NCBI GenBank assembly: GCA_029549985.1
Contig: JAKPIB010000046.1
Coordinates: 1-64,000 of the forward strand
DNA length: 64,000 nt
Reading direction: 5' to 3'
Source of the DNA: Bacillota bacterium
GTDB lineage: Bacteria; Bacillota; Clostridia; Caldicoprobacterales; DTU083
A program made the position numbers and the translations under genes. Within the stretch, counting starts at the first letter, position 1. The number at the start of each line of letters is the position of its first letter. The notes under the pieces are model-generated. The model was not told the DNA's origin. It saw nothing but the letters and a program-made list of their open reading frames with translations, and did not search any database. Below, in pieces: positions 6,530-58,226 of this stretch.

Positions 6530-6988
6530 ATGGATATGCAACAACCTGGCATTATGAATGACAAAAAAATCGATCTGACCATAACCACGCCCCGTGGAGT
6601 CAAATTTGTGGAAAAAGCCGACAGGGTGATCATGCGGTGCATCGACGGGGACATGGGCGTGCTGCCTGGCCATGCGCGGGTATCAACAGTGCTGGGCGAT
6701 GGGATCCTGCGTATTTTGAACAACGGCATTGAAAAGAAGCTAGCTGTATTTGGCGGCATAGCCGAGATAGATGACAAATCAGTGAAGATATTCAGCACCA
6801 TAGCCCAGCGGCCGGAAGAAATCGACCGTGAGCGCGCTGAGAGGGATCGTCAGGAAGCAGAGACTGCGATCCGGGAAGAGTCTGAAGAGGTCAGGATCCA
6901 TAGCCTGCAAGCCAAGCTGCGCCGGTCCCTGGTTCGAATCGAGGTCAGCCTTCATATCGATGAGGATGAGTACACAGAGGAGTTATAA
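6530..6988 (+). CDS. atpC: F1Fo ATP synthase subunit epsilon
   Basis: Epsilon binds the foot of gamma and regulates ATP hydrolysis. The N-terminal beta sandwich is recognisable (LTITTPRGVKF, then GDMGVLPGHARVSTVLGDGILRI), followed by a C-terminal helical hairpin rich in Glu and Arg. The C-terminal tail is somewhat longer than usual (152 residues in all). An ATG at 6554 is an alternative start (MNDKKIDL) and would match the normal N terminus better. It is the last gene of the operon and runs towards the convergent AraC gene, with only about 30 bases between them. Confidence 0.92.
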   Translation: MDMQQPGIMNDKKIDLTITTPRGVKFVEKADRVIMRCIDGDMGVLPGHARVSTVLGDGILRILNNGIEKKLAVFGGIAEIDDKSVKIFSTIAQRPEEIDRERAERDRQEAETAIREESEEVRIHSLQAKLRRSLVRIEVSLHIDEDEYTEEL

Positions 6989-7018
6989 TCGTCCTCCTGT
7001 AGGATATGTGTCGATTCT

Positions 7019-7882
7019 TTATTCTGTAGATACAAACTGCTGAGAGTATTTTTTAGGAGATATATTAAAGGTTTTACTGAATGCCCGGATGAAGTTCGAA
7101 TAGTCATTAAACCCACAAGCGTGGCATACGTCGGTTATACTCATGCCTTCCTTCAGAAGTGCCTTTGCTGCGATGAGCCGCTTCTGACGGATATAGCCGT
7201 AAAGGGTATAGCCCGTATGCCTTTTGAATTCTCTTATAAGGTGATATTTGCTGATGTACAACCTGGCGGAGAGGGCCTCGAGGGAGAGGTCCTTGTCCAG
7301 ATTGGCATTGATATAGTGAATGATCTCATCGATCCTCGAGTTATATATGATATCCTCCTTCATTGCAGCAACATCGCTTTCCAGATATACCCTGTTCAGG
7401 AGGATTAGCAGCTCAAGTACATAGATCCTGGCCAGAATATCACTTCCGTATCCTTCCCTAGTACAGGCATTATTGAGCTTGCTTAATGTATTTTTTATGA
7501 TATTGAGCGTTTTGGCGTCTGGCCTGAGAAGGTTGTATCTCTTTCTGGTAGTCGACTCGAAGCACTTGAAAAGGTCTGTCTCATCAGTACAGGCACTTCG
7601 GATAAAGTCAGGATTTATCCAGATGATGAACCTTTCATAGATCCCATCACCGATAATTGGTTTATGGAGCTCCTTGTTGTTTATAAGTAGAATATCTCCG
7701 GATTTCAGTGAATAGGACTTGCCTTCCACTATATAAGTTACCTTGCCTGATATAAAAAAGTAGATTTCGTAGAAGTCATGATAATGATATTCCACGTCAA
7801 GGTTTTTCTCGTCCTTGTAATGAAAGAACTCAAAATCGGGGCTCACCATATATTGCCGGGTGGTGAACTGCTGAGCGCTCAA
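7019..7882 (-). CDS. AraC-family transcriptional regulator of the uronate operon
   Basis: A regulator of about 287 residues with an N-terminal cupin sensor domain (HYHDFYEIYFFISGKV, then SGDILLINNKELHKP) and a C-terminal double helix-turn-helix of the AraC/XylS type (LSARLYISKYHLIREFKRHTG and ITDVCHACGFNDYSNFIRAFSKTFNISPKKY). GGAGG on the minus strand just before the GTG at 7891 fits the TTG at 7882 better. It is divergent from gnd-SDR-larA-uxaC-kinase. Two palindromes in the 142-base space between them are likely operators. By analogy with family members it should sense a sugar acid and activate the operon; the inducer is not known. Confidence 0.85.
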   Translation of the reverse strand: MSAQQFTTRQYMVSPDFEFFHYKDEKNLDVEYHYHDFYEIYFFISGKVTYIVEGKSYSLKSGDILLINNKELHKPIIGDGIYERFIIWINPDFIRSACTDETDLFKCFESTTRKRYNLLRPDAKTLNIIKNTLSKLNNACTREGYGSDILARIYVLELLILLNRVYLESDVAAMKEDIIYNSRIDEIIHYINANLDKDLSLEALSARLYISKYHLIREFKRHTGYTLYGYIRQKRLIAAKALLKEGMSITDVCHACGFNDYSNFIRAFSKTFNISPKKYSQQFVSTE

Positions 7883-7909
7883 GTAAACCACCTCCAGTCA
7901 TCAATGTAG

Positions 7910-7971
7910 GCAATATTTGCAATAAAACACACAATATAAGCAATGTATATTGCAATTATTAATAATATAAT
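7910..7971 (+). promoter_or_regulatory. Promoter and paired operators of the uronate operon
   Basis: GCAATATTTGC (7910-7920, imperfect dyad) and GCAATGTATATTGC (7940-7953, perfect 5-bp arms) are spaced 30 bp start to start, close to three helical turns. A consensus -10 TATAAT lies at 7966-7971. The -35 position falls inside the second palindrome and does not resemble TTGACA. A poor -35 with an operator on it is what an AraC-type activator promoter usually looks like. Assignment to the adjacent AraC protein is inferred from position. Confidence 0.6.
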
Positions 7972-8024
7972 ATTAGTGCAGGACATGTCAAACAATAGTA
8001 CGACTGCCAAAGGAGGAAAATGAA

Positions 8025-9476
8025 ATGGAAAAAGCCGATATAGGACTTATAGGACTTGCGGTGATGGGTGAAAACCTTGCCCTGAATATGGAAAGCAAGG
8101 GCTATACAGTCGCTGTTTTCAACCGCAGCCTTGACAAGGTAACCAGGTTTGTTGAGGGCAGGGCCAAAGGCAGGAACATAATCGGTACATATTCCATCGA
8201 AGAGCTGGCCGCAGCACTTAAGTCGCCAAGAAAGATCATGCTGATGGTGAAGGCCGGCAAGCCTGTGGATGACTTCATAGATTTACTGCTGCCCTATCTT
8301 GACAAGGGCGATGTCATAATCGACGGTGGAAATTCCCATTACCAGGATACGATACGCCGTACCAGGTATGTTGAAGAATGGGGCTTATTGTATATCGGCA
8401 CCGGCGTGTCAGGCGGCGAAGAGGGTGCGCTGAAGGGGCCGAGCATCATGCCAGGGGGCTCTCCTGCTGCATGGCCTCATGTAAAACCGATATTCCAGGC
8501 TATAGCCGCCAAGGTCAGTGACGGTACGCCTTGCTGTGACTGGGTCGGGGACAACGGTGCCGGCCACTTCGTCAAGATGGTGCACAATGGCATCGAGTAT
8601 GGCGATATGCAGCTTATTTGCGAGGCTTATCACCTTATGAAGGACTACCTTGGCATGTCCGCAGATGAAATGCATGAGGTCTTCAAGGAATGGAATGAGG
8701 GTGAGCTGAACAGCTACCTCATAGAGATCACTAGGGACATACTGGCATACAAGGATACGGACGGTACTCCGCTGGTGGAAAAAATACTGGATACCGCAGG
8801 CCAGAAGGGCACAGGCAAATGGACTTCGATCGCGTCCCTGGAGGAGGGTATCCCCCTGACTCTGATCGGGGAAGCGGTTTATGCCCGCTTTTTGTCGGCT
8901 ATGAAGGATGAGCGGGTAGCCGCATCAAGGGCCATCAGTGGACCTAAGCCTGATTTTACAGGAGACAGGCGGCAGTTCATCAATCATATAAAGGATGCGC
9001 TCTATGCTTCGAAAATAGTCTCCTATGCGCAGGGCTTCACACTTCTGCGGGCAGCGGCAAAGACCTACGGGTGGGACCTTAAGTACGGCGATATAGCACT
9101 TATGTGGCGTGGCGGCTGCATCATACGGTCAGTGTTCCTTGAGGAGATCAAGAAAGCCTTTGACAGGAACAATGATCTGGCTAATCTGCTTTTGGATCCG
9201 TTCTTCAAAGAAAAGATGGAAAAAGCCCAGGCGGGCTGGAGGAGGGTCGTTTCTGCGGCTGTCCTCAATGGCATCCCTGTACCAGCCTTTACATCGGCCT
9301 TGACCTACTTTGACGGATACAGGACAGAAAGGTTGCCTGCCAATCTCCTGCAAGCCCAGCGTGACTATTTCGGAGCCCATACCTATGAAAGGGTCGACAA
9401 GCCCAGAGGAGAGTTCTTCCATACCAACTGGACCGGCGAAGGCGGCACGACTGCATCCACTGTCTACACAGGATGA
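8025..9476 (+). CDS. gnd: 6-phosphogluconate dehydrogenase (decarboxylating)
   Basis: Converts 6-phosphogluconate to ribulose 5-phosphate and CO2. The Rossmann motif GLAVMGENLALNMESKGY is followed by FNRS, the same residues as in NADP-dependent enzymes. The signature DGGNSHYQDT and the active-site stretch GAGHFVKMVHNGIEYGDMQ are complete, including the catalytic lysine. The length of 483 residues is that of the long, E. coli-type enzyme. AAAGGAGG at 8009-8016 marks the ATG. It is the first gene of an operon with uronate genes, which is unusual and suggests that its substrate is formed from uronate-derived gluconate. Confidence 0.95.
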   Translation: MEKADIGLIGLAVMGENLALNMESKGYTVAVFNRSLDKVTRFVEGRAKGRNIIGTYSIEELAAALKSPRKIMLMVKAGKPVDDFIDLLLPYLDKGDVIIDGGNSHYQDTIRRTRYVEEWGLLYIGTGVSGGEEGALKGPSIMPGGSPAAWPHVKPIFQAIAAKVSDGTPCCDWVGDNGAGHFVKMVHNGIEYGDMQLICEAYHLMKDYLGMSADEMHEVFKEWNEGELNSYLIEITRDILAYKDTDGTPLVEKILDTAGQKGTGKWTSIASLEEGIPLTLIGEAVYARFLSAMKDERVAASRAISGPKPDFTGDRRQFINHIKDALYASKIVSYAQGFTLLRAAAKTYGWDLKYGDIALMWRGGCIIRSVFLEEIKKAFDRNNDLANLLLDPFFKEKMEKAQAGWRRVVSAAVLNGIPVPAFTSALTYFDGYRTERLPANLLQAQRDYFGAHTYERVDKPRGEFFHTNWTGEGGTTASTVYTG

Positions 9477-9511
9477 TCTGGACTTTAAGCCGGCAATTGG
9501 AGGGTTAAGAC

Positions 9512-10360
9512 ATGGATCCTGGCTTTTCAGTTGATTTGAAGGACAAGGTGGCTGTCGTAACAGGAGGTGGCGGAGTCCTTTGCAGTACCATGGCCAAGGC
9601 CTTGGCAAGATACGGTGCCAAGGTTGCCGTATTGTCCCGAAGGCAGGAAAATGCAGAAAAGGTGGCAGGGGAGATAATCAGGCAGGGCGGCAGAGCGATA
9701 GGCATCGGATGTAATGTGCTGGAGAAGGACAGCATGAATGCGGCAAGGGAGGTCATATACAAGGAGCTTGGTCTCTGTAATATCCTTGTGAATGGAGCGG
9801 GCGGCAATCACCCCAAAGGGACGACCTCCATGGAATTTCTTACAAAGGCTGATCTGGAAGGAGGTAAGGATTCGGTCACCTTCTTCGATCTTCAGCCTGA
9901 AGATATCGAGTATGTTTTCAACCTGAATTTCCTGGGTACTCTTATCACGACTCAGACCTTTGCCAGGGACATGATCGACAGGGATGGTGTCATAATCAAT
10001 ATCACCTCTATGAACTCCTTCAGTCCATTGACCAGGATCCCTGCATACAGCGGGGCCAAGGCTGCAGTTTCAAACTTTACCCAGTGGCTTGCAGTCCACT
10101 TCTCCAAGGTCGGTATCCGGGTCAATGCCATAGCGCCCGGCTTTTTTCTAACAAACCAAAACAGGTCTCTTCTTTTCAATGCTGACGGTACCCCAACAGA
10201 AAGAACAAAAAAGATCCTTGGGATGACACCCATGGGCAGACTTGGAGAGCCTGATGATCTGGTAGGGACACTTTTGTGGCTATGCTCTGACGCATCAAAA
10301 TTTGTGACCGGCGTAGTGGTCCCGGTTGACGGAGGATTCTCAGCCTATTCCGGAGTATAA
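9512..10360 (+). CDS. SDR-family oxidoreductase, probable D-fructuronate reductase (mannonate dehydrogenase)
   Basis: A short-chain dehydrogenase of 282 residues. The cofactor motif TGGGGVLCSTMAKAL, the NNAG-equivalent VNGAGG and the catalytic Ser/Tyr/Lys set (SMNSFSPLTRIPAYSGAKAA) are all present. An insert around residues 108-122 (TSMEFLTKADLEGGK) is typical of the SDR-type D-mannonate oxidoreductases of Firmicutes (B. subtilis YjmF/UxuB type). In that role it reduces fructuronate to D-mannonate in the cytoplasm. The position between gnd and a LarA-type epimerase with uxaC downstream agrees. A gluconate 5-dehydrogenase role is the main alternative. Confidence 0.82.
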   Translation: MDPGFSVDLKDKVAVVTGGGGVLCSTMAKALARYGAKVAVLSRRQENAEKVAGEIIRQGGRAIGIGCNVLEKDSMNAAREVIYKELGLCNILVNGAGGNHPKGTTSMEFLTKADLEGGKDSVTFFDLQPEDIEYVFNLNFLGTLITTQTFARDMIDRDGVIINITSMNSFSPLTRIPAYSGAKAAVSNFTQWLAVHFSKVGIRVNAIAPGFFLTNQNRSLLFNADGTPTERTKKILGMTPMGRLGEPDDLVGTLLWLCSDASKFVTGVVVPVDGGFSAYSGV

Positions 10361-10397
10361 GCCGGCTGTGCGCTGTTTTTAAGAAGAGGTGAAAGGG

Positions 10398-11651
10398 ATG
10401 TATGCCGATGCCGAGATATATGCTGCCCTGAAAGAGTCAGTCAAGGGGCAAAAGCTTAGAAAAGTCCTCCTGCTGCCACCCGATCTGACCCGGTTGCATT
10501 CCTACGCGGGCAGGATAACTGGCATGTACTATAACCTGCTCAAGGGCACATGCCAGGTCGATATAATGCCTGCACTCGGCACCCATGACCCGATGAGCCG
10601 AGAGGAGTGCCTGGAGATGTTCGGACCTGAAGTCCCTTACGAGGCCATTGTTGCGCACAATTGGAGGACTGATGTGATAAGAGTCGGAGAGGTGCCTGAA
10701 GATTTTGTCAGAGAAGTCTCTGATGGTGTGCTGGATTATTCCATTGATGTCCTGATCAATAAAAGGCTGCTGGACCCTTCCTATGATCTCATCATTTCTA
10801 TCGGCCAGGTCGTTCCCCATGAGGTAGCGGGCATGGCCAATTACACCAAGAATATACTGATTGGGTGCGGCGGCAAGGATATGATCGATAAGTCCCATTT
10901 TCTCGGCGCTGTATATGGTATGGAAAGGATCATGGGCCGTGACCATTCTCCTGTCAGGAAAGTATTCGACTATGCAGAAGAGCATTTCCTGAAAAGCATT
11001 CCGCTTACATATGTCATGACCGTGACCACCCTGTCGGGTGATACGGTAAATGTCGAAGGGCTCTTCATCGGCCGCGACCGCAGGTTATTTGAAGAGGCCG
11101 TGGCTTTGTGCCGGAAGAAGAGCCTTAACTTGCTTGACGAGCCGCTTAAAAAGGTCATCGTCTACCTGGACGAAAGAGAATTCAGGAGCACCTGGCTCGG
11201 CAATAAGGCCATTTACCGGACCCGTATGGCTATTGCCGATGGGGGCGAGCTAGTCATCATAGGGCCTGGCATCAGGAAATTCGGAGAGGATGAGGGGATC
11301 GACAGCCTGGTTCGCAGATACGGATATAAAGGCAGGGCAGAAATACTCAGCTTGTACAGATCGAATGCCGATCTGCAGGCCAATCTCTCGGTAGCAGCCC
11401 ACCTGATCCATGGGTCCTCGGATGGCAGATTCAGTATCACATATGCTGCAGGGCAGCTCTCAAAAAACGAAGTCGAGGGCGTAGGCTATAAATATATGGA
11501 GTTTTACGACGCTCTGGCGCTGTACAGGCCTGATAGGCTGAAAGCCGGTTTCAATACCCTTCCTAATGGTGAGGAGGTATACTACATCAGCAACCCTGCT
11601 GTAGGACTCTGGGCGGCGAAAAGTAGTTTTCAGGGGAGAGGACATGAGTGA
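10398..11651 (+). CDS. LarA-family nickel-pincer racemase/epimerase, possibly D-mannonate/D-gluconate 2-epimerase
   Basis: A 417-residue member of the LarA (DUF2088) family of 2-hydroxyacid racemases and epimerases that use the nickel-pincer nucleotide cofactor. PPDLTRLHSYAG holds the Asp29-Thr31-Arg32 motif and LGTHDPM holds His63. Then His141, Lys151 and His167 follow with the same +10 and +26 spacing as His174, Lys184 and His200 of Lactobacillus plantarum LarA, where Lys binds the pincer and the histidines bind nickel or act in catalysis. The substrate cannot be read from sequence. Neighbouring mannonate- and gluconate-related genes suggest epimerisation at C2 of D-mannonate. The start is an ATG after AGAGGTG (10386-10391); a GTG at 10389 overlaps that site. 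No larB, larC or larE is in the window. Confidence 0.8.
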   Translation: MYADAEIYAALKESVKGQKLRKVLLLPPDLTRLHSYAGRITGMYYNLLKGTCQVDIMPALGTHDPMSREECLEMFGPEVPYEAIVAHNWRTDVIRVGEVPEDFVREVSDGVLDYSIDVLINKRLLDPSYDLIISIGQVVPHEVAGMANYTKNILIGCGGKDMIDKSHFLGAVYGMERIMGRDHSPVRKVFDYAEEHFLKSIPLTYVMTVTTLSGDTVNVEGLFIGRDRRLFEEAVALCRKKSLNLLDEPLKKVIVYLDEREFRSTWLGNKAIYRTRMAIADGGELVIIGPGIRKFGEDEGIDSLVRRYGYKGRAEILSLYRSNADLQANLSVAAHLIHGSSDGRFSITYAAGQLSKNEVEGVGYKYMEFYDALALYRPDRLKAGFNTLPNGEEVYYISNPAVGLWAAKSSFQGRGHE

Positions 11652-13078
11652 AGGCTTTTATACATGACGATTTCATGCTGAGTACTGACACGGCGAAACG
11701 GCTTTATCAAATGCATGCAGTGAATATGCCGATATTCGACTATCATTGTCACTTAAGCCCCAGGGATATTCTCGAGGACAAAAGCTTCAGCGATATGACC
11801 GAGATCTGGCTTGGGAGCGATCACTACAAATGGCGGCTAATGAGGGCCAATGGGGTAGAGGAGCGATATATCACAGGAGATGCGGATCCCTATGATAAAT
11901 TTTTAAAATGGGCTGAGACCTTGCCCAAGGCGCTGGGCAACCCCCTTTACCATTGGACTCACCTGGAGCTCAAGCGCTATTTCGGGGTGGATGAGCTACT
12001 ATCACCCAGGACAGCACCGGAGATTTGGAAGGCATGTAATGAAATGCTTGCCCGAGAGGATTTTTCGGCCCGTTCTCTGATCAAGAGGTCCAATGTCAGG
12101 GTCCTTTGCACCACTGATGACCCTGTTGATGATCTGAGCTGCCACATCGAGCTTGATAAAGCAGGAGATTTCCAGGTTAAGGTGCTGCCAACATTCCGAC
12201 CCGATGCCGCTTTCAACCTTGCAAGCAAAGGCTTTACCGCTTATATTTCACGCCTGTCTGAAGCATCCGGCATCAGCATCTCATCATTCGATGAGCTGGT
12301 TGAAGCATTGCGGGTACGGGCGCTGTTCTTTAAGTCGGCAGGATGCAGGATCTCGGACATCTCCTTCGGAAGCTTCAACTTTTCAGAGGGCTCTGTATCA
12401 GATGCGGATAATGCTTTTAGAAAGGCACTGGCGGGCGATAGCATCTCCCAGGCCGATATCGACGCATACAGGACCTGGCTCATGGTAGCTTTAGGCAGTA
12501 TATACAGCAGCCTTGAATTTGTGATGCAGGTCCACATGGGAGTGATCCGCAACACCAATGAAAGGATGTTTGATCTGGTAGGACCTGATACAGGCTTTGA
12601 CGCCATCGGAAACGGCATATCAGCAAATGACCTTGCCAGGCTTCTGAATGCCATGTGCAAAAACGGAGGGCTGCCAAAAATGATCCTGTACTGCCTGAAT
12701 GACCAGGATAATGCCAAAATAGCATCCATCATAGGATGCTTTCAAGGCGGGGGCATACCGGGCAAGCTCCAGCTGGGAGCAGCCTGGTGGTTCAATGACC
12801 ACAAGGACGGCATGCTCAATCAGCTCAGGACTCTGGGGAATCTGGGGCTTTTGGGTAACTTTGTGGGGATGCTCACGGATTCACGCAGCTTCCTCTCTTA
12901 TCCCAGACATGAATATTTCAGAAGAGTATTATGCGACCTGATCGGCGAATGGGCAGAGCGAGGCGAGGTACCCCAGGACGGAGACCTGCTCGGTCAGATG
13001 GTAGAGGATATATGCTACAATAATGCTGTACGGTATTTTAGCATGAACGATAAGGAGGTTTCCTTGAATGAAGCTTAA
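11648..13078 (+). CDS. uxaC: Uronate isomerase (glucuronate/galacturonate isomerase)
   Basis: Interconverts D-glucuronate and D-fructuronate (or galacturonate and tagaturonate) in the cytoplasm. It belongs to the amidohydrolase superfamily. The N-terminal metal motif FDYHCHLSP is near residue 32, the segment RVLCTTDDPVDDL follows, and HKDGMLNQL near the C terminus is the conserved Asp region. The length of 476 residues is normal. The GTG start overlaps the stop codon of the LarA-type gene (GTGA), a sign of translational coupling and of a shared pathway. Confidence 0.95.
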   Translation: MKAFIHDDFMLSTDTAKRLYQMHAVNMPIFDYHCHLSPRDILEDKSFSDMTEIWLGSDHYKWRLMRANGVEERYITGDADPYDKFLKWAETLPKALGNPLYHWTHLELKRYFGVDELLSPRTAPEIWKACNEMLAREDFSARSLIKRSNVRVLCTTDDPVDDLSCHIELDKAGDFQVKVLPTFRPDAAFNLASKGFTAYISRLSEASGISISSFDELVEALRVRALFFKSAGCRISDISFGSFNFSEGSVSDADNAFRKALAGDSISQADIDAYRTWLMVALGSIYSSLEFVMQVHMGVIRNTNERMFDLVGPDTGFDAIGNGISANDLARLLNAMCKNGGLPKMILYCLNDQDNAKIASIIGCFQGGGIPGKLQLGAAWWFNDHKDGMLNQLRTLGNLGLLGNFVGMLTDSRSFLSYPRHEYFRRVLCDLIGEWAERGEVPQDGDLLGQMVEDICYNNAVRYFSMNDKEVSLNEA

Positions 13079-14141
13079 AAAGGATTACACCTATGCGCTG
13101 TTGGCACCCACCAGCATGGGGGTGCGCATCACTCCTTGCCAGAGGCAGCCTGTGCATACAAGCGATACCTTTTATATGCACGCCACAAGCGCGGAAACGA
13201 ATGTCTTGAGTATATCCGCTTCTCTTGGATTTCCATGCAAGGTATTGACGACATTTGTCAAGGACAGCCCCATAGCGGCTTTTATCAAAAGCGATCTTAG
13301 GAGCAGAAACATAGCCTATGAGGGTAGGGATGTACCCCAGGGAGGTCCATGGGGTTACAGGCATCAGTTCAATATTGCCGACAGTGGCTTTGGCGCCCGT
13401 GGGCCAATAGTACATAATGACCGGGCGGGAGAAGTGGGGCGCACCTTGAATGCCGGGGATTTCGACCTTGACAGGATCTTTGGCAAGGAAGGTGTCGGTG
13501 TCGTGCACATATCAGGCCTGATTGCAGCCTTGTCACCGGAGACGAGCAGGTCCTGCCTTGAGATCGCAAGGACGGCGAAAAAATACGGCAGCAAAATATC
13601 CTTTGACCTGAATTACCGGGCATCCTTCTGGAAAGGCCGGGAGCATGAGCTGAAGGCTGCATTTACCGAAATTGCCGGCCTGGCTGATATCCTGGTCGGC
13701 AACGAAGAGGATTTCCAGCTTTGCCTTGGCATCCCGGGGCCTGAGGTGGGCGGCCGCGGCCTGTTGATGAAAATAGACGGCTTTAAAGAAATGATCGAGC
13801 GGACTAGAAAACTCTTCCCAAATGCTTCTGTTTTCGCTACGACCCTCAGGGAGGTTATAGATGCTAATCGCCACCTATGGGGTGCCATCATGAGGGAAGG
13901 GGACAATTGGTATATTGTTGAGCCCAGGGAAATTTCGGTCCTGGACCGAATCGGAGGCGGCGATGCCTTTGTGGGCGGCTTGTTATACGGTATACTGAAG
14001 GACTGGGAACCGGAGAAATGGATACAGTTTGGTTGGGCTTCCAGTGCATTGGTTACCACATTGCTGACCGATTATGCGCTTCCTGTCGACGAAGACCAGG
14101 TATGGAGCATTTGGGAGGGCAATGCCCGGGTCAAACGATGA
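13068..14141 (+). CDS. PfkB-family sugar kinase, possible gluconate kinase
   Basis: A ribokinase-fold kinase of 357 residues. The C-terminal signature DRIGGGDAFVGGLLYG contains the catalytic aspartate, and ISFDLNYRASFW resembles the KdgK (2-keto-3-deoxygluconate kinase) group. The N-terminal signature is divergent: ATSAETNVLSISASLG replaces the usual glycine pair. An annotation pipeline would probably call it KDG kinase. However, no enzyme that makes or uses KDG is present here, and gnd is in the same operon, so phosphorylation of gluconate at O6 is at least as plausible. The start overlaps uxaC by 11 bases, after GGAGG at 13054-13058. Confidence 0.8.
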   Translation: MKLKKDYTYALLAPTSMGVRITPCQRQPVHTSDTFYMHATSAETNVLSISASLGFPCKVLTTFVKDSPIAAFIKSDLRSRNIAYEGRDVPQGGPWGYRHQFNIADSGFGARGPIVHNDRAGEVGRTLNAGDFDLDRIFGKEGVGVVHISGLIAALSPETSRSCLEIARTAKKYGSKISFDLNYRASFWKGREHELKAAFTEIAGLADILVGNEEDFQLCLGIPGPEVGGRGLLMKIDGFKEMIERTRKLFPNASVFATTLREVIDANRHLWGAIMREGDNWYIVEPREISVLDRIGGGDAFVGGLLYGILKDWEPEKWIQFGWASSALVTTLLTDYALPVDEDQVWSIWEGNARVKR

Positions 14142-14148
14142 TCGCATC

Positions 14149-14186
14149 AAAAAGACGGGATGCCGGCTATATGCTCAGGCATCCCG
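14149..14186 (-). terminator. Terminator of lplA, possibly bidirectional
   Basis: A perfect 9-bp stem, CGGGATGCC (14156-14164) with GGCATCCCG (14178-14186). Read on the minus strand it is followed by TCTTTTT (14155-14149), so it ends lplA transcription. It may also slow transcription from the uronate operon, although the plus-strand side has no T run. Confidence 0.75.
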
Positions 14187-14201
14187 ATCAACTAAAGATC
14201 A

Positions 14202-15203
14202 TCAATAGAACATGCATTGGATGAAATCGTCTATGGTGAAACCTGCCAGGTAGCTCTCAAAGTCAATAGACTCAAGCAGGCTTCTCACAGCCTCTTCCTT
14301 GTATAAAGTCCCGATAAGCCTGGACTCCAGCTCGGAGATCTCCTTTTTGCCGAAAAAGTCGCCCAGGATCCTGATCTGGCTTATGGTGCTCACCTTGTCA
14401 CGCTTTACGTTGAACCTTAAGTCCAGCTTACCTCCTGTGAAACGTCTTTTTTTCTCCACGTTGAATGCTGGTGATTCGCCGTAGTTCCACTCCCATGTGG
14501 CGTATTTCCTTTCAACGAGCTCGTTTATTGCCGTTATATCCTTCTCTGACAGGATATATTCCTTTTTCTTGTAATCCTCGTCATTCAAAATGAACTTCAG
14601 CAAAGCGTCCTTGAAATCCTCCAACGATATGCTATCCTTAAGATACGGCAGAATATTGGTGACCCTGCTTCTGACCGATTTGACTCCCTTGGATTCTATT
14701 TTGTCATGGCTCACATTGAGAGCTTCCTGCACTCTGGCCAAATCGGAATTGAAGAGTATGGTGCCATGGTGGAGCAGCCTGTCCTTGAAATAATACTGGG
14801 CGTTGCCTGAAAATTTCCTGCCGTCTATGGTGATATCGTTCCGTCCTGTAAACTGTGCATCCACGCCTAAGGACCTTAGCAGGCTGACTACAGGTTCGGT
14901 GAACTTCCTGAAATTTTCAGCCACATCACCCTTGTTCCTGACGATGAAGGTGAAGTTCAGATTTCCCAGGTCATGATATACTGCCCCTCCGCCTGATAGA
15001 CGCCTGACTACATGTATATTGTTGTCTTTTATGAAATTTATGTTTATCTCCTCGATGGTGTTCTGGTTTCTTCCGATGATGACAGAAGGCTCGTTTTGCC
15101 ATAGGATTACATAGTCAAAATCCGGGTCCATTTGCTTTATGACATACTCTTCCAAAGCGAGATTGAAACGGGGATCCTTGCAGTTGTTCCTGATGCTGAT
15201 CAT
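14202..15203 (-). CDS. lplA: Lipoate-protein ligase A
   Basis: Attaches lipoate (via lipoyl-AMP) to lipoyl domains such as GcvH or E2 subunits. The motif VVRRLSGGGAVYHDLGNLNFTF and the lysine in GRKFSGNAQY are those of LplA. A C-terminal accessory domain with GKLDLRFNVK is present, so this is the long form. The frame is open to 15239, but that codon lies in the -10 box of the promoter at 15238-15266. AGGAGG at 15211-15216 (minus strand) selects the ATG at 15203, giving MISIRNN. Confidence 0.92.
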   Translation of the reverse strand: MISIRNNCKDPRFNLALEEYVIKQMDPDFDYVILWQNEPSVIIGRNQNTIEEININFIKDNNIHVVRRLSGGGAVYHDLGNLNFTFIVRNKGDVAENFRKFTEPVVSLLRSLGVDAQFTGRNDITIDGRKFSGNAQYYFKDRLLHHGTILFNSDLARVQEALNVSHDKIESKGVKSVRSRVTNILPYLKDSISLEDFKDALLKFILNDEDYKKKEYILSEKDITAINELVERKYATWEWNYGESPAFNVEKKRRFTGGKLDLRFNVKRDKVSTISQIRILGDFFGKKEISELESRLIGTLYKEEAVRSLLESIDFESYLAGFTIDDFIQCMFY

Positions 15204-15237
15204 ATAGTGCCTCCTGTATGATGGCTCTTTAGATTTC

Positions 15238-15266
15238 AATTTATATATTAAACCTGGTCATGTCAA
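15238..15266 (-). promoter_or_regulatory. Promoter of lplA
   Basis: On the minus strand, TTGACA (15266-15261), a 17-bp spacer and TAAATT (15243-15238). The -35 is a perfect consensus and the -10 matches four of six bases. The expected start of transcription near 15231 leaves about 28 bases of leader before the ATG at 15203. Confidence 0.7.
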
Positions 15267-15346: not shown

Positions 15347-16585
15347 TCAGCTATGTTTTTTTATGAGGACGATGGCCAGATCGTTCACATTTGTGCCCGT
15401 AGGCCCGGTGATGATCAGTCCGTTGCATGCTCTCAGCGCGTTGTAGGAATCATTGTTATCAAGCACCCTGGATATATCGATGCCCATTTGGTCCAGTAAA
15501 GGCTTTGTATTGCCGTCAACAAAACCACCTGCCGCATCGGTGGGCCCGTCTGTTCCATCAGAGCCGAATGAAAAAACCGCAGTGTTGTCGAGTCCTGATA
15601 TACCTATTGCTGCGGCCAGGGCCAGCTCCTGGTTCCGGCCTCCCAAGCCGTTACCTTTTAAATGTACTACTGTTTCACCGCCTGCAATAAAGGCGAGGGA
15701 CCTGCGGCTGCCGGCATGAAAACGGGCTATCGAGGCTAAAAAGCTCCCTGCTTCCCGTGCTTCACAGCTAAGGCTGGTGGTCAGTACTATCGGTTCATAG
15801 CCCAGGACTCTGCAAGTTTCCTCGGCAGCTGAGCATAGCTGGGTGACACTTCCTGTTACCATGGTGGTAACATTGTCTATGGCAGCGGGTGTTTCGGTTT
15901 TAAGCGCCTTTTCTGCCTCAGGAGATATTTTTATACTGTATTTGTCTATCATCGCGAGCGCCTCTTCACAGGTAGACTTATCCGGATAGGCAGGGCCGGA
16001 AGCGATCATGTCCAGGGGATCGCCGATAATATCAGACAAAACCACGGAATATATATGGGCGGGCAGGCACAGGTTTGCAAACCTGCCGCCTTTGACAGCT
16101 GACAAGCGCTTGCGTATCGTGTTTATCTCAACGATATTGGCACCGCTGCCCAAAAGCTGTCCGGTGATATCTTCCAGCTCTGCTTTTGTGATCAGGGGCT
16201 TCTCAAAAAGGGCTGAACCCCCTCCTGAGATGAGAAACAAGACCCTGTCTGAAGGAGAAAGCCCTGATACGAGCCTGAGCGCCTGCTCTGTTGCATGGAA
16301 TGAGTTTTCGTCCGGCACCGGGTGCCCTGCTTCATAGATCTCGATATTAGGCAGACCGCCTTTTGAATGACCGTACTTAGTGATGACTACGCCGCTCTCT
16401 ATCCTGTCGCCCAGAAGATCAGAGGCGGCTTTGGCCATGGACCAGGCAGCCTTGCCTATGGCTACGAGCCGCACCCTTCCGCCTGACAAGTCCAGGGATT
16501 GCAGCGCGTTTTGGACTGCGGTCCCGGGCAGAGCAGCCTTTACAGCAGCATCGACTATTTTATCAGCATCGTCTCTTAGACCCAA
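15347..16585 (-). CDS. Glycerate 2-kinase (GckA/TtuD type, MOFRL domain)
   Basis: Phosphorylates glycerate at C2. The N-terminal DUF4147 domain contains VRLVAIGKAAWSMA and the phosphate-binding LFLISGGGSALFEKP. The C-terminal MOFRL domain contains LGGRNQELALAAA and FGSDGTDGPTDAAGG. Older annotation calls such proteins hydroxypyruvate reductase, which is usually wrong. A TTG at 16585 is the likely start, after GGAAGGAG; the in-frame TTG at 16615 would lie at the transcription start of a promoter with TATAAT at 16622-16617. About 410 residues. It stands alone between lplA and a divergent SGNH gene. Confidence 0.9.
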   Translation of the reverse strand: MGLRDDADKIVDAAVKAALPGTAVQNALQSLDLSGGRVRLVAIGKAAWSMAKAASDLLGDRIESGVVITKYGHSKGGLPNIEIYEAGHPVPDENSFHATEQALRLVSGLSPSDRVLFLISGGGSALFEKPLITKAELEDITGQLLGSGANIVEINTIRKRLSAVKGGRFANLCLPAHIYSVVLSDIIGDPLDMIASGPAYPDKSTCEEALAMIDKYSIKISPEAEKALKTETPAAIDNVTTMVTGSVTQLCSAAEETCRVLGYEPIVLTTSLSCEAREAGSFLASIARFHAGSRRSLAFIAGGETVVHLKGNGLGGRNQELALAAAIGISGLDNTAVFSFGSDGTDGPTDAAGGFVDGNTKPLLDQMGIDISRVLDNNDSYNALRACNGLIITGPTGTNVNDLAIVLIKKHS

Positions 16586-16616
16586 GTCATATGGCTCCTT
16601 CCTGAATACTGGCAAT

Positions 16617-51721: not shown

Positions 51722-52528
51722 TCATGCCTGTTTCAGGGATTTACACCATTCTGACGGGGACAGGCCGATTATTTTCTTAAATACCTTGCTGAAATAAAAA
51801 ATATCTTCAAAGCCGCACTTCAATGCTGTCTCGCTCACTGAGTATTCTCCGGTGGCCAGCATATCGCAGGCCTTGTTTATACGTATCCTCTGGGTGTACT
51901 CGTTTATGGTATAGCCTGTTTTTTTGCGGAACAAGGAACCCATATAGACTGTATTCAGTTGTACAAGACTGGCCAATGTCTCTTTATCGATTTTCTCGTG
52001 GTAATGATTGACTATGTATTTTTTCAGCTTTTCTATTCTCAGGTCAGCTGCCTGCTTATCAGCCTGTGAAGGCAGCCTCGAATATATGTAGTGCAGGATC
52101 ATCATAAACAGCCCTGAAGCCTTCAGCGAGAAACCGTCCTTGCGCTCAAGCCAGACTATGTTGTACTCTCTCAACAGCTTGATGAAATACGGGTCCTCGG
52201 GGATATTGAACACTGTATCAAGGGGAAGGGGATCATCGTCAACTGAGGGATATGCTATGTTGAAGTTGAAGGCAAAGGAATGTACAGGATCATCAGGATC
52301 TGTAACTGCTTCACGTATGCTTCCTTTCGGAACATATATTATATCGCCGGGATTAAGCTCGAAGCTCTGTTCATTCACAAAGTAAGTGGCTTTACCCTTA
52401 TATATGTAGGTCAAATCATGGAAGCAGATCTTGTCTTTCTTGATCTGCCAGGAGGCTGTCCCTTTGCGCTCTATAAAATACTGGATCACCGGCAGAAATA
52501 CGTCATCGTTGGTCAACAAGGCAAACAC
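51722..52528 (-). CDS. AraC-family regulator next to the GH67 gene
   Basis: A 268-residue AraC/XylS-type activator with an N-terminal cupin domain (DLTYIYKGKATYFVNEQSFELNPGDIIYVPKGS) and two C-terminal helix-turn-helix motifs (LASLVQLNTVYMGSLFRKKTG; VSETALKCGFEDIFYFSKVFKKIIGLSPSEW). It is divergent from the alpha-glucuronidase gene, about 100 bases apart, so that gene is the most likely target. The inducer is probably an aldouronic acid or related sugar, by context only. Confidence 0.85.
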   Translation of the reverse strand: MFALLTNDDVFLPVIQYFIERKGTASWQIKKDKICFHDLTYIYKGKATYFVNEQSFELNPGDIIYVPKGSIREAVTDPDDPVHSFAFNFNIAYPSVDDDPLPLDTVFNIPEDPYFIKLLREYNIVWLERKDGFSLKASGLFMMILHYIYSRLPSQADKQAADLRIEKLKKYIVNHYHEKIDKETLASLVQLNTVYMGSLFRKKTGYTINEYTQRIRINKACDMLATGEYSVSETALKCGFEDIFYFSKVFKKIIGLSPSEWCKSLKQA

Positions 52529-52632
52529 TCCCGATTCTTTAATAATTACAAGACTCTTAACTCCTTATATGGATTATAGCACAGAATTACCTTATCATGA
52601 AGCTGGAAGATCACAGGGTTTACGGAGGTTAT

Positions 52633-54741
52633 ATGACTAACGTAGGGAAGAGCAGTTCTGATATAGTATCTACAGGCATACGTGAAAATTGCAAAGAGTA
52701 CGACAGCTGCTGGCTCAGGTATCATCAGGCGTTACAGGAAAGCTGCCTGTCTGATTCGGGCGATGTCTTAAAATACATATACTATAATAGTTCGGGTGAG
52801 ATTTCAGATAATGCATACACCGAGCTCACAGAAGGCATTGCCCGGATGACGGGGTCAAGACCTGCTTGTGTTTCGTCGCTTGATGGTCCCTGCGTTGTGC
52901 TTATGGTTTCCGGTATGGACCCGAAGGCAGAATCGATGCTGAGCAAGGAAGAGCTGCGCAGCATGAAGGCTGAAGGCTTCCTGATCAAGCAGGTAGATAA
53001 GCCACCGACATCAAAGCTGTTGATTGCTTCAAAAAGTGAAAGAGGTTTGTTGTACGGTGTTTTTAAATTTATGCTGCTGCTGACACAGGGTAGGAGCCTG
53101 AAGAACATTCATCTGCTGGAAAATCCTAAGAATAAGCTGCGGTTGATCGATCAATGGGACAATGTTGACGGATCGGTAGAAAGGGGTTATGCCGGTAGGT
53201 CGATCCTGTTTTCGGACAATGACCTGGCAAAAGACAAGGGAAGGATATCATTTTACGCAAGGCTGCTGGCCTCTGTCGGCATCAATGGAATAGTACTTAA
53301 CAATGTGAATGTTCATAAAGAAGAAACCAGGCTAATTGATGACAGAATATACATAGTCAGGCAGCTGGCTGATATTTTTCGGGGGTATGGCATCAGGGTA
53401 TACCTGAGCATAAACTTTGCCAGCCCGATCGATTTGGGCAGCCTTTCTACCGCAGACCCCCTGGACAAGGATGTGGCTGACTGGTGGAAAAAGAGAGCTG
53501 ACTATATATACAGCCATATCCCGGATTTTGGCGGATTTTTAGTAAAAGCCGATTCGGAGCACAGGCCCGGACCTTATACATACGGCCGCAACCATGCCGA
53601 GGGTGCCAATATGCTGGCAGCAGCGCTCAAGCCGCATGGCGGCCTTGTCATATGGCGGTGCTTCGTATACAACTGTCAGCAGGACTGGCGCGACAAGGCC
53701 ACCGACAGGGCAAAGGCAGCCTATGATAATTATAGACATCTGGATGGTTGGTTTGATGATAACGTGATACTGCAGGTCAAAAACGGGCCTATGGATTTCC
53801 AGGTACGCGAGCCGGTCTCGCCGCTCTTTGGCGCTATGGAGCAGACCAACATGATGCTGGAGCTCCAGATCACCCAGGAGTACACAGGACAGCAGCGGCA
53901 TTTGTGCTACCTGGTGCCTCAGTGGAAGGAGATCCTTGAGTTTGACACTTATGCAGCAAGCGAGGGTACGCCTGTTAAAAGGGTAATAGACGGTTCTGCC
54001 TTTGAGAGGGCAAACTGTGGCATAGCAGGCGTGAGCAATATCGGCTCTGATTACAACTGGACCGGCCACTACCTTGCCCAGGCAAACCTTTACGGTTATG
54101 GCAGGCTGGCCTGGGACCCTGACTTGTCAGCCGAGGAGATCACCAGGGAGTGGATAAGCTGCACCTTTGGCAACGACCCTGCAGTCATGGCCACCATTTC
54201 AGAAATGCTACTAGCCTCCTGGCTTATTTATGAGTCATATACAGCTCCGCTGGGCATAGGCTGGATGGTCAATCCCAATCATCACTATGGGCCTAATGTT
54301 GATGGCTACGAGTATTCTAGATGGGGCACTTATCACAGGGCTGATTTCCAGGCGATAGGCGTTGACAGGACAAAGGCCGGGGGGACTGGCTTTACAGCCC
54401 AGTATAGAGAGCCAAATTTCAGGAGGTTTGAATCATTGGATACCTGTCCCGAAGAGCTGGTGCTGTTTTTCCACAGGCTGCCCTACACTTACAGGCTGAA
54501 AAGCGGCAAAACTGTCATCCAGCATATTTATGACTCGCATTTTTATGGTGTGGAGCAGGCAGAACAGCTACGCAGCAAGTGGGAGTCTCTCAAGGGCATG
54601 ATAGATGATGAAAGGCATGGGCATGTCCTGTCACGCTTGAATGAACAGGTCGAACATGCAAAGGAATGGCGGGATGTGATTAACTCATACTTTTACAGAA
54701 AAACAGGCATACCTGATGAAAAGGGGAGGATCATATATTGA
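52633..54741 (+). CDS. aguA: Alpha-glucuronidase, GH67
   Basis: Removes glucuronic or 4-O-methylglucuronic acid from the non-reducing end of xylo-oligosaccharides. The catalytic acid Glu309 lies in [11 protein letters not shown]. The catalytic base pair is Asp388 ([17 protein letters not shown]) and Glu416 (ELQITQEY). The spacings 79 and 28 are the same as E285/D364/E392 of the Geobacillus enzyme. There is no signal peptide, so it is intracellular and acts on imported aldouronic acids. GGAGG at 52624-52628 selects the ATG at 52633, giving 702 residues. The glucuronate released can feed the uxaC operon at 8-14 kb. Confidence 0.95.
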
Positions 54742-57269: not shown

Positions 57270-58226
57270 ATGGACTGGATTACTCCTATGGAGCCAATCT
57301 CAACTAAAAAGCTGATCAGTGGCAGTGACTGGATACACCAGATAAAGTGGGACGGCATCCGGGGGCTCACATATATAGAAGGAGACAGCATAAGAGTATT
57401 CACAAAAAACAGAAATGAGCGGACCGCCTTTTATCCGGAGCTAACCGATGCCAGAAAACTGGTGAAAGCAAACCGGGCAGTACTTGACGGTGAGATAATA
57501 GTATTGGGCGATGATGGAAGGCCTTCATTCCATAGGTCGCTTATAAGGGAACGGGTGAAGAGTCCGGGCAGGGTAAGGCACTACATGGCAAAATTCCCTG
57601 CTGCCTATGCAATATTTGATATCCTGTATCTTGAAGACAAGCCTGTGACCACGCTTCCGCTCAAAGAGCGCAGAGAGATCCTTATTAGCACAGTAGAGCA
57701 AGGCCAAAGCTTCATGATAACCGATGACTTCACGGACGGACATGGCCTGTTTGAGCTTATGAAGCAGAAAAACTGGGAAGGGATCGTCACTAAAAACATA
57801 TACAGTCCCTACCTGCCGGCCAAGGGCCACCGCGCATGGTACAAGCTGAAAGCAATTAAGAAGCTCCTGGCAATAATCTGCGGAACAAGCCTGAAAGCTG
57901 GTATGCCAAATTCGCTCATGCTGGGAGTAAACAGGGAAGGCGCTCTTTCATTCATAGGCAAGGCATCCCAGGGACTTTCACAAACCGATTTGTATCTGAT
58001 CAAGGAGTATATGCCGCAACTTAAAAGCGATACAAGTCCGTTTCAGGATACGTCCGGATTGAACGAACCTGATGTTGTCTGGTTTGCCCCCGTTCTTACA
58101 TGCTGGGTAAGCTTTCTGGAATGGACTGATGACGGAGTACTAAGGCACCCGAGAATCCTCGGGTTTTCAAGCAACAGCCCTGAAGAAGCAGACGGAAGGG
58201 AATGGGCAATGGATGAACGAGCTTGA
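57270..58226 (+). CDS. ATP-dependent DNA ligase, LigD ligase domain as a separate protein
   Basis: Seals breaks in the end-joining pathway. The adenylated lysine is in motif I (HQIKWDGIRGL); motif III is AYAIFDILYL, motif IV WEGIVTKN and motif V WYKLKAIKK. A C-terminal OB fold follows. The 318 residues cover only the ligase domain of LigD; polymerase and phosphoesterase domains are absent from this chain. The gene ends 14 bases after the start of the polymerase-domain gene, so the two are translated together. Confidence 0.92.
   Translation: MDWITPMEPISTKKLISGSDWIHQIKWDGIRGLTYIEGDSIRVFTKNRNERTAFYPELTDARKLVKANRAVLDGEIIVLGDDGRPSFHRSLIRERVKSPGRVRHYMAKFPAAYAIFDILYLEDKPVTTLPLKERREILISTVEQGQSFMITDDFTDGHGLFELMKQKNWEGIVTKNIYSPYLPAKGHRAWYKLKAIKKLLAIICGTSLKAGMPNSLMLGVNREGALSFIGKASQGLSQTDLYLIKEYMPQLKSDTSPFQDTSGLNEPDVVWFAPVLTCWVSFLEWTDDGVLRHPRILGFSSNSPEEADGREWAMDERA

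Follow-up and report, generated by a model that had tools for sequence, protein, structure and literature searches.

The operon at positions 8025-14141 of a 64,000-nt stretch of Bacillota DNA (contig JAKPIB010000046.1; the whole stretch is called here the window) probably takes D-glucuronate into the pentose phosphate pathway as a self-contained module. Its five genes code for 6-phosphogluconate dehydrogenase (Gnd), a short-chain dehydrogenase/reductase (SDR), a group-18 homologue of lactate racemase (LarA), uronate isomerase (UxaC) and a sugar-acid kinase of the PfkB family. The concept of such a route is known; what is new here is the PfkB kinase in the larA/gnd module and the uncoupling of group-18 LarA from the genes for synthesis of the nickel-pincer cofactor (NPN). 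The most surprising part is that the nickel-pincer site is conserved while genes for making the cofactor are missing.

Operon and proposed route

Five open reading frames (ORFs) lie on the plus strand of 8025-14141, each with a single stop at its own end. The first, gnd (8025..9476), codes for decarboxylating 6-phosphogluconate dehydrogenase (TIGR00873, 780 bits, cut-off 427; PF00393, 458 bits) with the NADP-type motif Asn-Arg-Ser. It is followed after 35 bp by the gene for the SDR, of the fructuronate reductase/D-mannonate oxidoreductase type (9512..10360; NF006132, 425 bits, cut-off 281), and after another 28 bp by larA (10389..11651; NF052594, 626 bits, cut-off 500), whose product is a putative 2-epimerase of hexonates (mannonate/gluconate or their 6-phosphates). 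The uxaC gene for glucuronate (uronate) isomerase (11648..13078; PF02614, 719 bits; NF002794, 630 bits, cut-off 387) overlaps larA by 4 bp and is itself overlapped by 11 bp by the gene for the PfkB-family kinase (13068..14141; PF00294, 68 bits, cut-off 26), a putative gluconate (or mannonate) 6-kinase. ORFs, families and overlaps agreed with the original prediction for this DNA, and the whole set is kept in a genome of the same genus, G001, where all five genes share 82-93% identity with those of the window.

In the proposed route, D-glucuronate, probably freed from glucuronoxylan, would be isomerised to D-fructuronate by UxaC and then reduced to D-mannonate by the SDR, two conversions that are standard for these enzyme families. 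The group-18 LarA homologue would invert C2 of D-mannonate, the PfkB kinase would phosphorylate O6 to give 6-phosphogluconate, and Gnd would decarboxylate this compound to ribulose 5-phosphate. LarA and PfkB are the sole candidates in the operon for the steps between mannonate and Gnd. We infer every substrate, the order of the steps, the use of cofactors and the supply of NPN to the epimerase.

The residues at the end of strand 2 usually distinguish the cofactor in the SDR superfamily, Ser-Arg-Arg going with NADPH and Asp with NADH. The window SDR has Ser-Arg-Arg there, which suggests that it uses NADPH. Since both this motif and that of Gnd are of the NADP type, the pair may be redox-neutral, and the net gain of NADPH in the original prediction is doubtful. 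If both dehydrogenases use NADP(H), the sum would be glucuronate + ATP to ribulose 5-phosphate + CO2 + ADP. Many of the 42 SDRs encoded at the related loci described below have Asp in place of Ser-Arg-Arg, so cofactor use would vary between hosts.

The missing steps of the canonical pathway were sought in the genome of the window (2.11 Mb in 52 contigs, 96.7% complete), hereafter the host genome. UxuA (PF03786) and KDPG (2-keto-3-deoxy-6-phosphogluconate) aldolase (PF01081) gave 0 matches, in searches that did not extend to phosphogluconate dehydratase, altronate dehydratase, DapA-type KDG (2-keto-3-deoxygluconate) aldolases or other gluconate kinases. The same searches on 14 control genomes matched UxuA in five and KDPG aldolase in eight. 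By these searches the host genome would not belong with those carrying the canonical UxuA/KDPG uronate pathway, and the absence of these two enzymes, predicted from the window, held for the genome.

Relation to known systems and order of the steps

PMC6978723 and PMC7583248 credit Rodionova et al. (2012) with the proposal of a route of this kind (statements on publications refer, here and below, to the portions of their text that were available). Together with PMC3750489, these papers rule out that the route is new to the literature; the path from glucuronate to pentose phosphate put forward in the original prediction is partly supported, in its gene content and in the missing UxuA and KDPG aldolase, and its idea has a precedent. 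In Thermotoga maritima, gnd, uxaE, uxaD, gntE and gntK share one locus (PMC3750489), and GntE converts mannonate to gluconate (PMC7583248). Like the window, this gnd-uxaRED-gntEK locus brings together Gnd, a fructuronate reductase (UxaD), a LarA-family mannonate/gluconate 2-epimerase and a kinase, with entry into the pentose phosphates. UxaD is presumably of the SDR type. The T. maritima system differs in its substrate, galacturonate or pectin, and in using UxaE, the kinase GntK and a group-20 GntE, whereas the window has UxaC in the operon, PfkB and a group-18 LarA. The T. maritima genome also contains a kdgAK-uxuBA operon, in contrast to the host genome with its lack of matches to UxuA and KDPG aldolase.

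The isomerase-phosphoketolase hybrid pathway of Lactobacillus suebicus is likewise similar in leading from mannonate to 6-phosphogluconate and then through Gnd, redox-neutral to ribulose 5-phosphate (PMC6978723). It differs in that the kinase acts ahead of the epimerase, with the genes for both steps not assigned, and in that UxuA, KdgK and KdgA are annotated, though not detected in the proteome (PMC6978723). If the kinase also came first in the window, PfkB would be a mannonate 6-kinase and group-18 LarA a 6-phosphomannonate 2-epimerase, with the end product and the operon unchanged. Extracts of L. suebicus phosphorylated mannonate and interconverted 6-phosphomannonate and 6-phosphogluconate, and no gluconate was formed from mannonate in 0.5 h (PMC6978723). 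The characterised GntEs, on the other hand, work on unphosphorylated mannonate and gluconate (PMC7583248), and the candidate kinases of L. suebicus are gluconate-kinase-like (gntK) genes, no PfkB being named in the available text (PMC6978723). Clusters of larA, PfkB and gnd without uxaC or SDR (for example, at loci L100, L103 and L131) fit a path that starts with phosphorylation and are compatible with either order. We consider a kinase-first order unlikely, while giving it real weight. The order of epimerase and then kinase, which the original prediction only assumed and which the L. suebicus extracts reverse, is favored because the characterised relatives act on free acids.

The LarA homologue

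By its score the window protein belongs to NF052594, which NCBIfam titles nickel-dependent putative hexonate epimerase. An AlphaFold model of the protein (mean confidence, pLDDT, 93.2) was compared with solved structures using Foldseek and VIA-align. The closest was T. maritima GntE, 4NAR (Z 45.2, 390 residues, 2.1 Å), and the lactate racemase structures 5huq and 6c1w reached Z about 30; by its predicted model, the protein has the LarA fold. Identity to 4NAR is 22-25%, though the Glu and Trp signature positions are common to both, and the anchoring loop differs. In agreement with the signature described for groups 18-20 (PMC7583248), Glu-Val follows the second His and the alpha-11 region has a Trp. 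Groups 19 and 20 epimerise D-mannonate and D-gluconate in vitro, and a hexonate substrate for group 18 is only hypothesised there (PMC7583248). A eukaryotic GntE was added in JBC in 2024, in an article whose available main text lacks the term LarAH18 (PMC11770544). Characterised GntEs convert D-mannonate and D-gluconate into each other (PMC7583248, PMC11770544); together with this, the family, the predicted fold and the signature fit a hexonate 2-epimerase, in line with the original prediction.

The group-18 sequences compared came from the window and from 53 loci whose larA ORFs span 405-450 aa; a further set comprised 29 loci and the window. Residues D32, R35, H66, H144, K154, H170 and K273 were invariant in 54/54. 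Alignment to 4NAR and 5huq together with spacing made them the equivalents of LarA D72, R75, H108, H174, K184, H200 and K298, which are catalytic and NPN-binding residues. The loop ahead of the anchoring Lys is A-N-[YH]-x-K in most sequences (Asn in 54 of the 54, Ala in 51, Tyr in 42, His in 10), and V-G-x-G-G follows it in group 18, with G-x-G-G in all 54. The 20 paralogues examined from other LarA groups have SGGxK..PG, and 4NAR keeps SGGLK. Decay of the group-18 active site where LarC is missing was considered and not seen: genomes with and without LarC did not differ in a set of 31 sequences, which includes one just below the NF052594 cut-off (G031) and one from a larA with a run of N (G006).

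Group-18 LarA and the genes for NPN synthesis

The original prediction did not take into account that the host genome has no match to LarC, and neither LarB nor LarE over cut-off. Since these were not found, the epimerase may lack its cofactor. LarC was present in the T. maritima genome, used as control. The same-genus genome G001 has larE-larB-larC in a row (L061 5581-8410, G001:C164), so that a loss of LarBCE or an assembly gap is possible for the host genome; the flanks of these three genes were sought beside the host's second LarA gene and in the window, with no match. That second LarA (L164 9702-10943, G000:C5) passed the cut-off of the malate racemase family NF052593, again without any LarBCE found in the genome. 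Its gene run also contains a type II glyceraldehyde-3-phosphate dehydrogenase, a phosphoglycerate-kinase-like gene and a split transketolase-like pair.

Group 18 is present over cut-off in 29 of 61 genomes, comprising the host and its relatives. LarC and LarB are both found in 11 of the 29, another 17 are without any of LarB, LarC and LarE over cut-off, and G028 has only a LarE fragment at a contig edge. Detection of LarE is imperfect, because G025 and G034 have LarB and LarC with no LarE over cut-off. A class-wide survey then covered 391 genomes for group 18 (over cut-off in 58) and for LarC (E 1e-5; found in 173), LarB and LarE not being searched. LarC was found in 17 of the 58 group-18 carriers versus 156 of 333 other genomes (Fisher P 0.015, kinship ignored), leaving 41 carriers without it. 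As a control, LarA homologues of other groups were identified with NF033504 at E 1e-30 in 110 of the 391 genomes; LarC was found in 63 of these 110 versus 110 of the remaining 281 (P 0.0015, kinship ignored). Genomes with group 18 and no other LarA homologue had LarC in 4/29 cases, and those with other homologues only in 50/81. These counts indicated that group-18 LarA is uncoupled from the NPN synthesis genes, whereas for LarA homologues of other groups the association with LarC is positive.

Carriers without LarC occurred in 15 of the 22 families having group 18. Of the 31 carriers with a listed completeness of 95% or more, 21 were without LarC, in 14 of 19 families, and the single-contig genomes G008 and G214 are also group-18 carriers without LarC. 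These near-complete and single-contig genomes rule out an assembly gap as the general account of the missing LarBCE. The absence of LarC is not unique to group 18, either: 47 of the 110 genomes with other LarA groups lack it as well, so the shortage reaches beyond group 18, though it is stronger in that group. In G050, whose listed completeness is 100%, three LarA homologues with SGGxK fall outside group 18 (L062-L064); this genome has no LarC, and no LarB or LarE over cut-off. Six further genomes, of which the completeness is not stated, were searched for LarC; it was found in Sporobacter termitidis and in an Elusimicrobiota metagenome-assembled genome (MAG), with no match in Peloplasma aerotolerans and three MAGs. 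Acholeplasma-like bacteria have a pfkB-gnd-SDR-larA cluster (L123 in P. aerotolerans and L136 in an Acholeplasmataceae MAG), and neither of the two genomes gave a LarC match. In G016 (C2:205388-206667), and at like places in f2 genomes, LarC occurs as two adjacent pieces covering model positions 1-235 and 239-375. The LarC gene of L. plantarum is reportedly frameshifted, which resembles this arrangement.

With most carriers lacking LarC, the genomes do not support the term nickel-dependent in the name of NF052594. Conservation of the NPN anchors in genomes without NPN genes leads to the proposal that the cofactor is captured or made by a route not yet known, and the remodelled loop (ANYxK..VGxGG) would leave room for a different cofactor. 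It is quite possible, though we would stop short of calling it probable, that group-18 LarA works in most hosts without the known NPN genes, either on NPN or a precursor captured from the community, as a shared 'vitamin', or on a cofactor from a novel route held in the remodelled loop. A different explanation is that group-18 LarA lacks NPN and is inactive as an epimerase or catalyses another reaction. The scarcity of LarC among carriers and the divergence of the anchoring loop from the SGGxK..PG of the paralogues would fit this explanation; the invariance of all NPN-anchoring and catalytic residues, the recurrence of the operon and the 52-67% identity among relatives from several phyla (by record titles) make it improbable. 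In the open-licence literature, as represented by titles and the starts of abstracts, no description was found of group 18 in a setting of this kind or of LarA without LarBCE. The reverse case, LarBCE without LarA, was described in mBio in 2024 (PMC11796402), and LarA homologues with a single histidine in Protein Sci. in 2025 (PMC12611868).

The PfkB kinase

The kinase reached none of the NCBIfam cut-offs. Its best match was NF041633, a KDPG aldolase/kinase fusion (164 of 700), and the KDG kinase equivalogs NF041332 (92 of 440), NF040938 (47 of 400) and NF052444 (28 of 400) were all below cut-off. The predicted model (pLDDT 88.2) had 4gm6 and the KDG kinase TM0067 (2afb) as its closest folds, and identity to the best-ranking solved structures was 24-26%. 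By PF00294 and by fold, the protein is a PfkB kinase and not a member of the FGGY fold, to which GntK belongs. It thus shares its fold with the PfkB KDG kinases (TM0067, 2afb; Thermus, 1v19), relatives among the sugar-acid kinases, and differs from them in that its usual neighbor is gnd rather than KDPG aldolase.

Gene neighborhoods were analyzed around larA in the best 80 of 583 relatives of the query, a sample that is not random. Seventy of the 80 loci were used, and 10 were dropped as the simple ORF caller gave no plus-strand larA ORF. Gene runs were defined as same-strand ORFs around larA with gaps of no more than 300 bp, and identity thresholds of at least 45% for the SDR and at least 50% for the window-type PfkB were applied. 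In these 70 runs, gnd was present in 43, PfkB in 25, the SDR in 20, uxaC in nine and an FGGY kinase in four. All 25 PfkB runs and three of the four FGGY runs contain gnd, and no run has both kinases. Because every PfkB run has gnd and none has an FGGY gene, PfkB most likely feeds Gnd; this gene context sets it apart from KDG metabolism, and we take the subfamily to be a replacement gluconate or mannonate kinase. Among the five loci with window-type PfkB in a first set, gnd was found in L046, L053, L054 and L056. In L031, the FGGY protein is gluconokinase-like, though below the cut-off (245 of 649 bits). A gene for a PHP-domain phosphoesterase-like protein lies between larA and gnd in L092 (2151-3017), L093 (9228-10088) and L098 (9231-10079). 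In the same titles and abstract starts of the open-licence literature, no comparable PfkB kinase for gluconate or mannonate was found described.

Several observations weigh against the proposed route, beyond the missing NPN genes of the host genome and the non-random neighborhood sample. Both sequence and fold place the kinase closest to KDG kinases. No gnd was found in 27 of the 70 runs, some of which are cut by contig ends. Under a looser rule, counting six ORFs on either side of larA, PfkB was near larA in 28 loci, and gnd was missing nearby in L107, L124 and L152; at L045, where PfkB is likewise close to larA, the 19 kb examined (about 9 kb on each side) contain no gnd. A constant pairing of PfkB with gnd is therefore true for the 25 gene runs only. 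UxuA was found in 14 of the 58 group-18 carriers versus 128 of the 333 other genomes (P 0.039, uncorrected, kinship ignored), so the operon tends to replace UxuA without excluding it; the co-occurrence with absence of uxuA expected in the original prediction is a tendency, and kdgA was covered in the host genome only. The kinase can come first, as in L. suebicus (PMC6978723), and in the available portions of the literature examined no report of activity was found for any group-18 LarA or for the PfkB subfamily. A reading of PfkB as a common KDG kinase that works in an Entner-Doudoroff-like route, with a dehydratase and aldolase that are non-homologous or were missed and with LarA and Gnd serving otherwise, would agree with its nearest solved relatives, with its best match to the aldolase/kinase fusion and with the four loci where it lies near larA without gnd, and is made very improbable by the lack of UxuA and KDPG aldolase matches in the host genome and by the gnd found in 25/25 runs holding both kinase and larA.

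Regulation and genomic setting

An AraC-family gene (7019..7891, minus strand; PF12833, PF02311) is divergent from the operon and is its likely regulator. Its homologues adjoin the same genes in G001 (87% identity), G034 (59%) and G023 (41%). The 133 bp between this gene and gnd (7892..8024) are the presumed control region and include an AGGAGG-type ribosome site ahead of gnd. A sigma-70-like match (11/12) was located within it on the minus strand at 7991-7962, where it would serve the regulator gene, and no plus-strand sigma-70-like match was found ahead of gnd in 7892..8024. Across 6950-14400, there were 15 such matches versus 9.6 (standard deviation 3.5) in shuffled sequences. The window contains no Rfam matches at the gathering threshold and no tRNAs.

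About 38 kb from the operon, the contig also encodes a glycoside hydrolase family 67 (GH67) alpha-glucuronidase (52597..54741, plus strand; PF07488, 523 bits; PF07477, 332 bits), a plausible source of (4-O-methyl)glucuronate. An AraC-type regulator gene (51722-52528) lies just upstream on the other strand, and the two together suggest growth on glucuronoxylan. The transketolase-like halves, each below the full-length cut-off, are on another contig (L164). With GH67 and these halves, the genome would encode both a supply of glucuronate and an outlet for pentose phosphate. Other genes of the window include those for a MOFRL-type glycerate kinase and a lipoate-protein ligase (15347-16615 and 14202-15239), convergent with the operon and with no evident link to it, and for an ATP-dependent DNA ligase of 318 aa (57270-58226), which we take to be of the kind seen in end-joining systems.

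Significance

If the proposed route is correct, a large and mostly uncultured group of bacteria, many of them from the rumen or animal gut by record titles, would use plant glucuronate by taking it redox-neutrally into pentose phosphates. The PfkB subfamily would then be a novel type of kinase for gluconate or mannonate, and annotations as KDG kinase and lactate racemase would be repaired. The operon also supplies candidate gene families for mannonate kinase and 6-phosphomannonate epimerase activities that so far have been without genes. The conserved NPN site in genomes missing the cofactor genes poses a direct and testable question on the origin of the cofactor.

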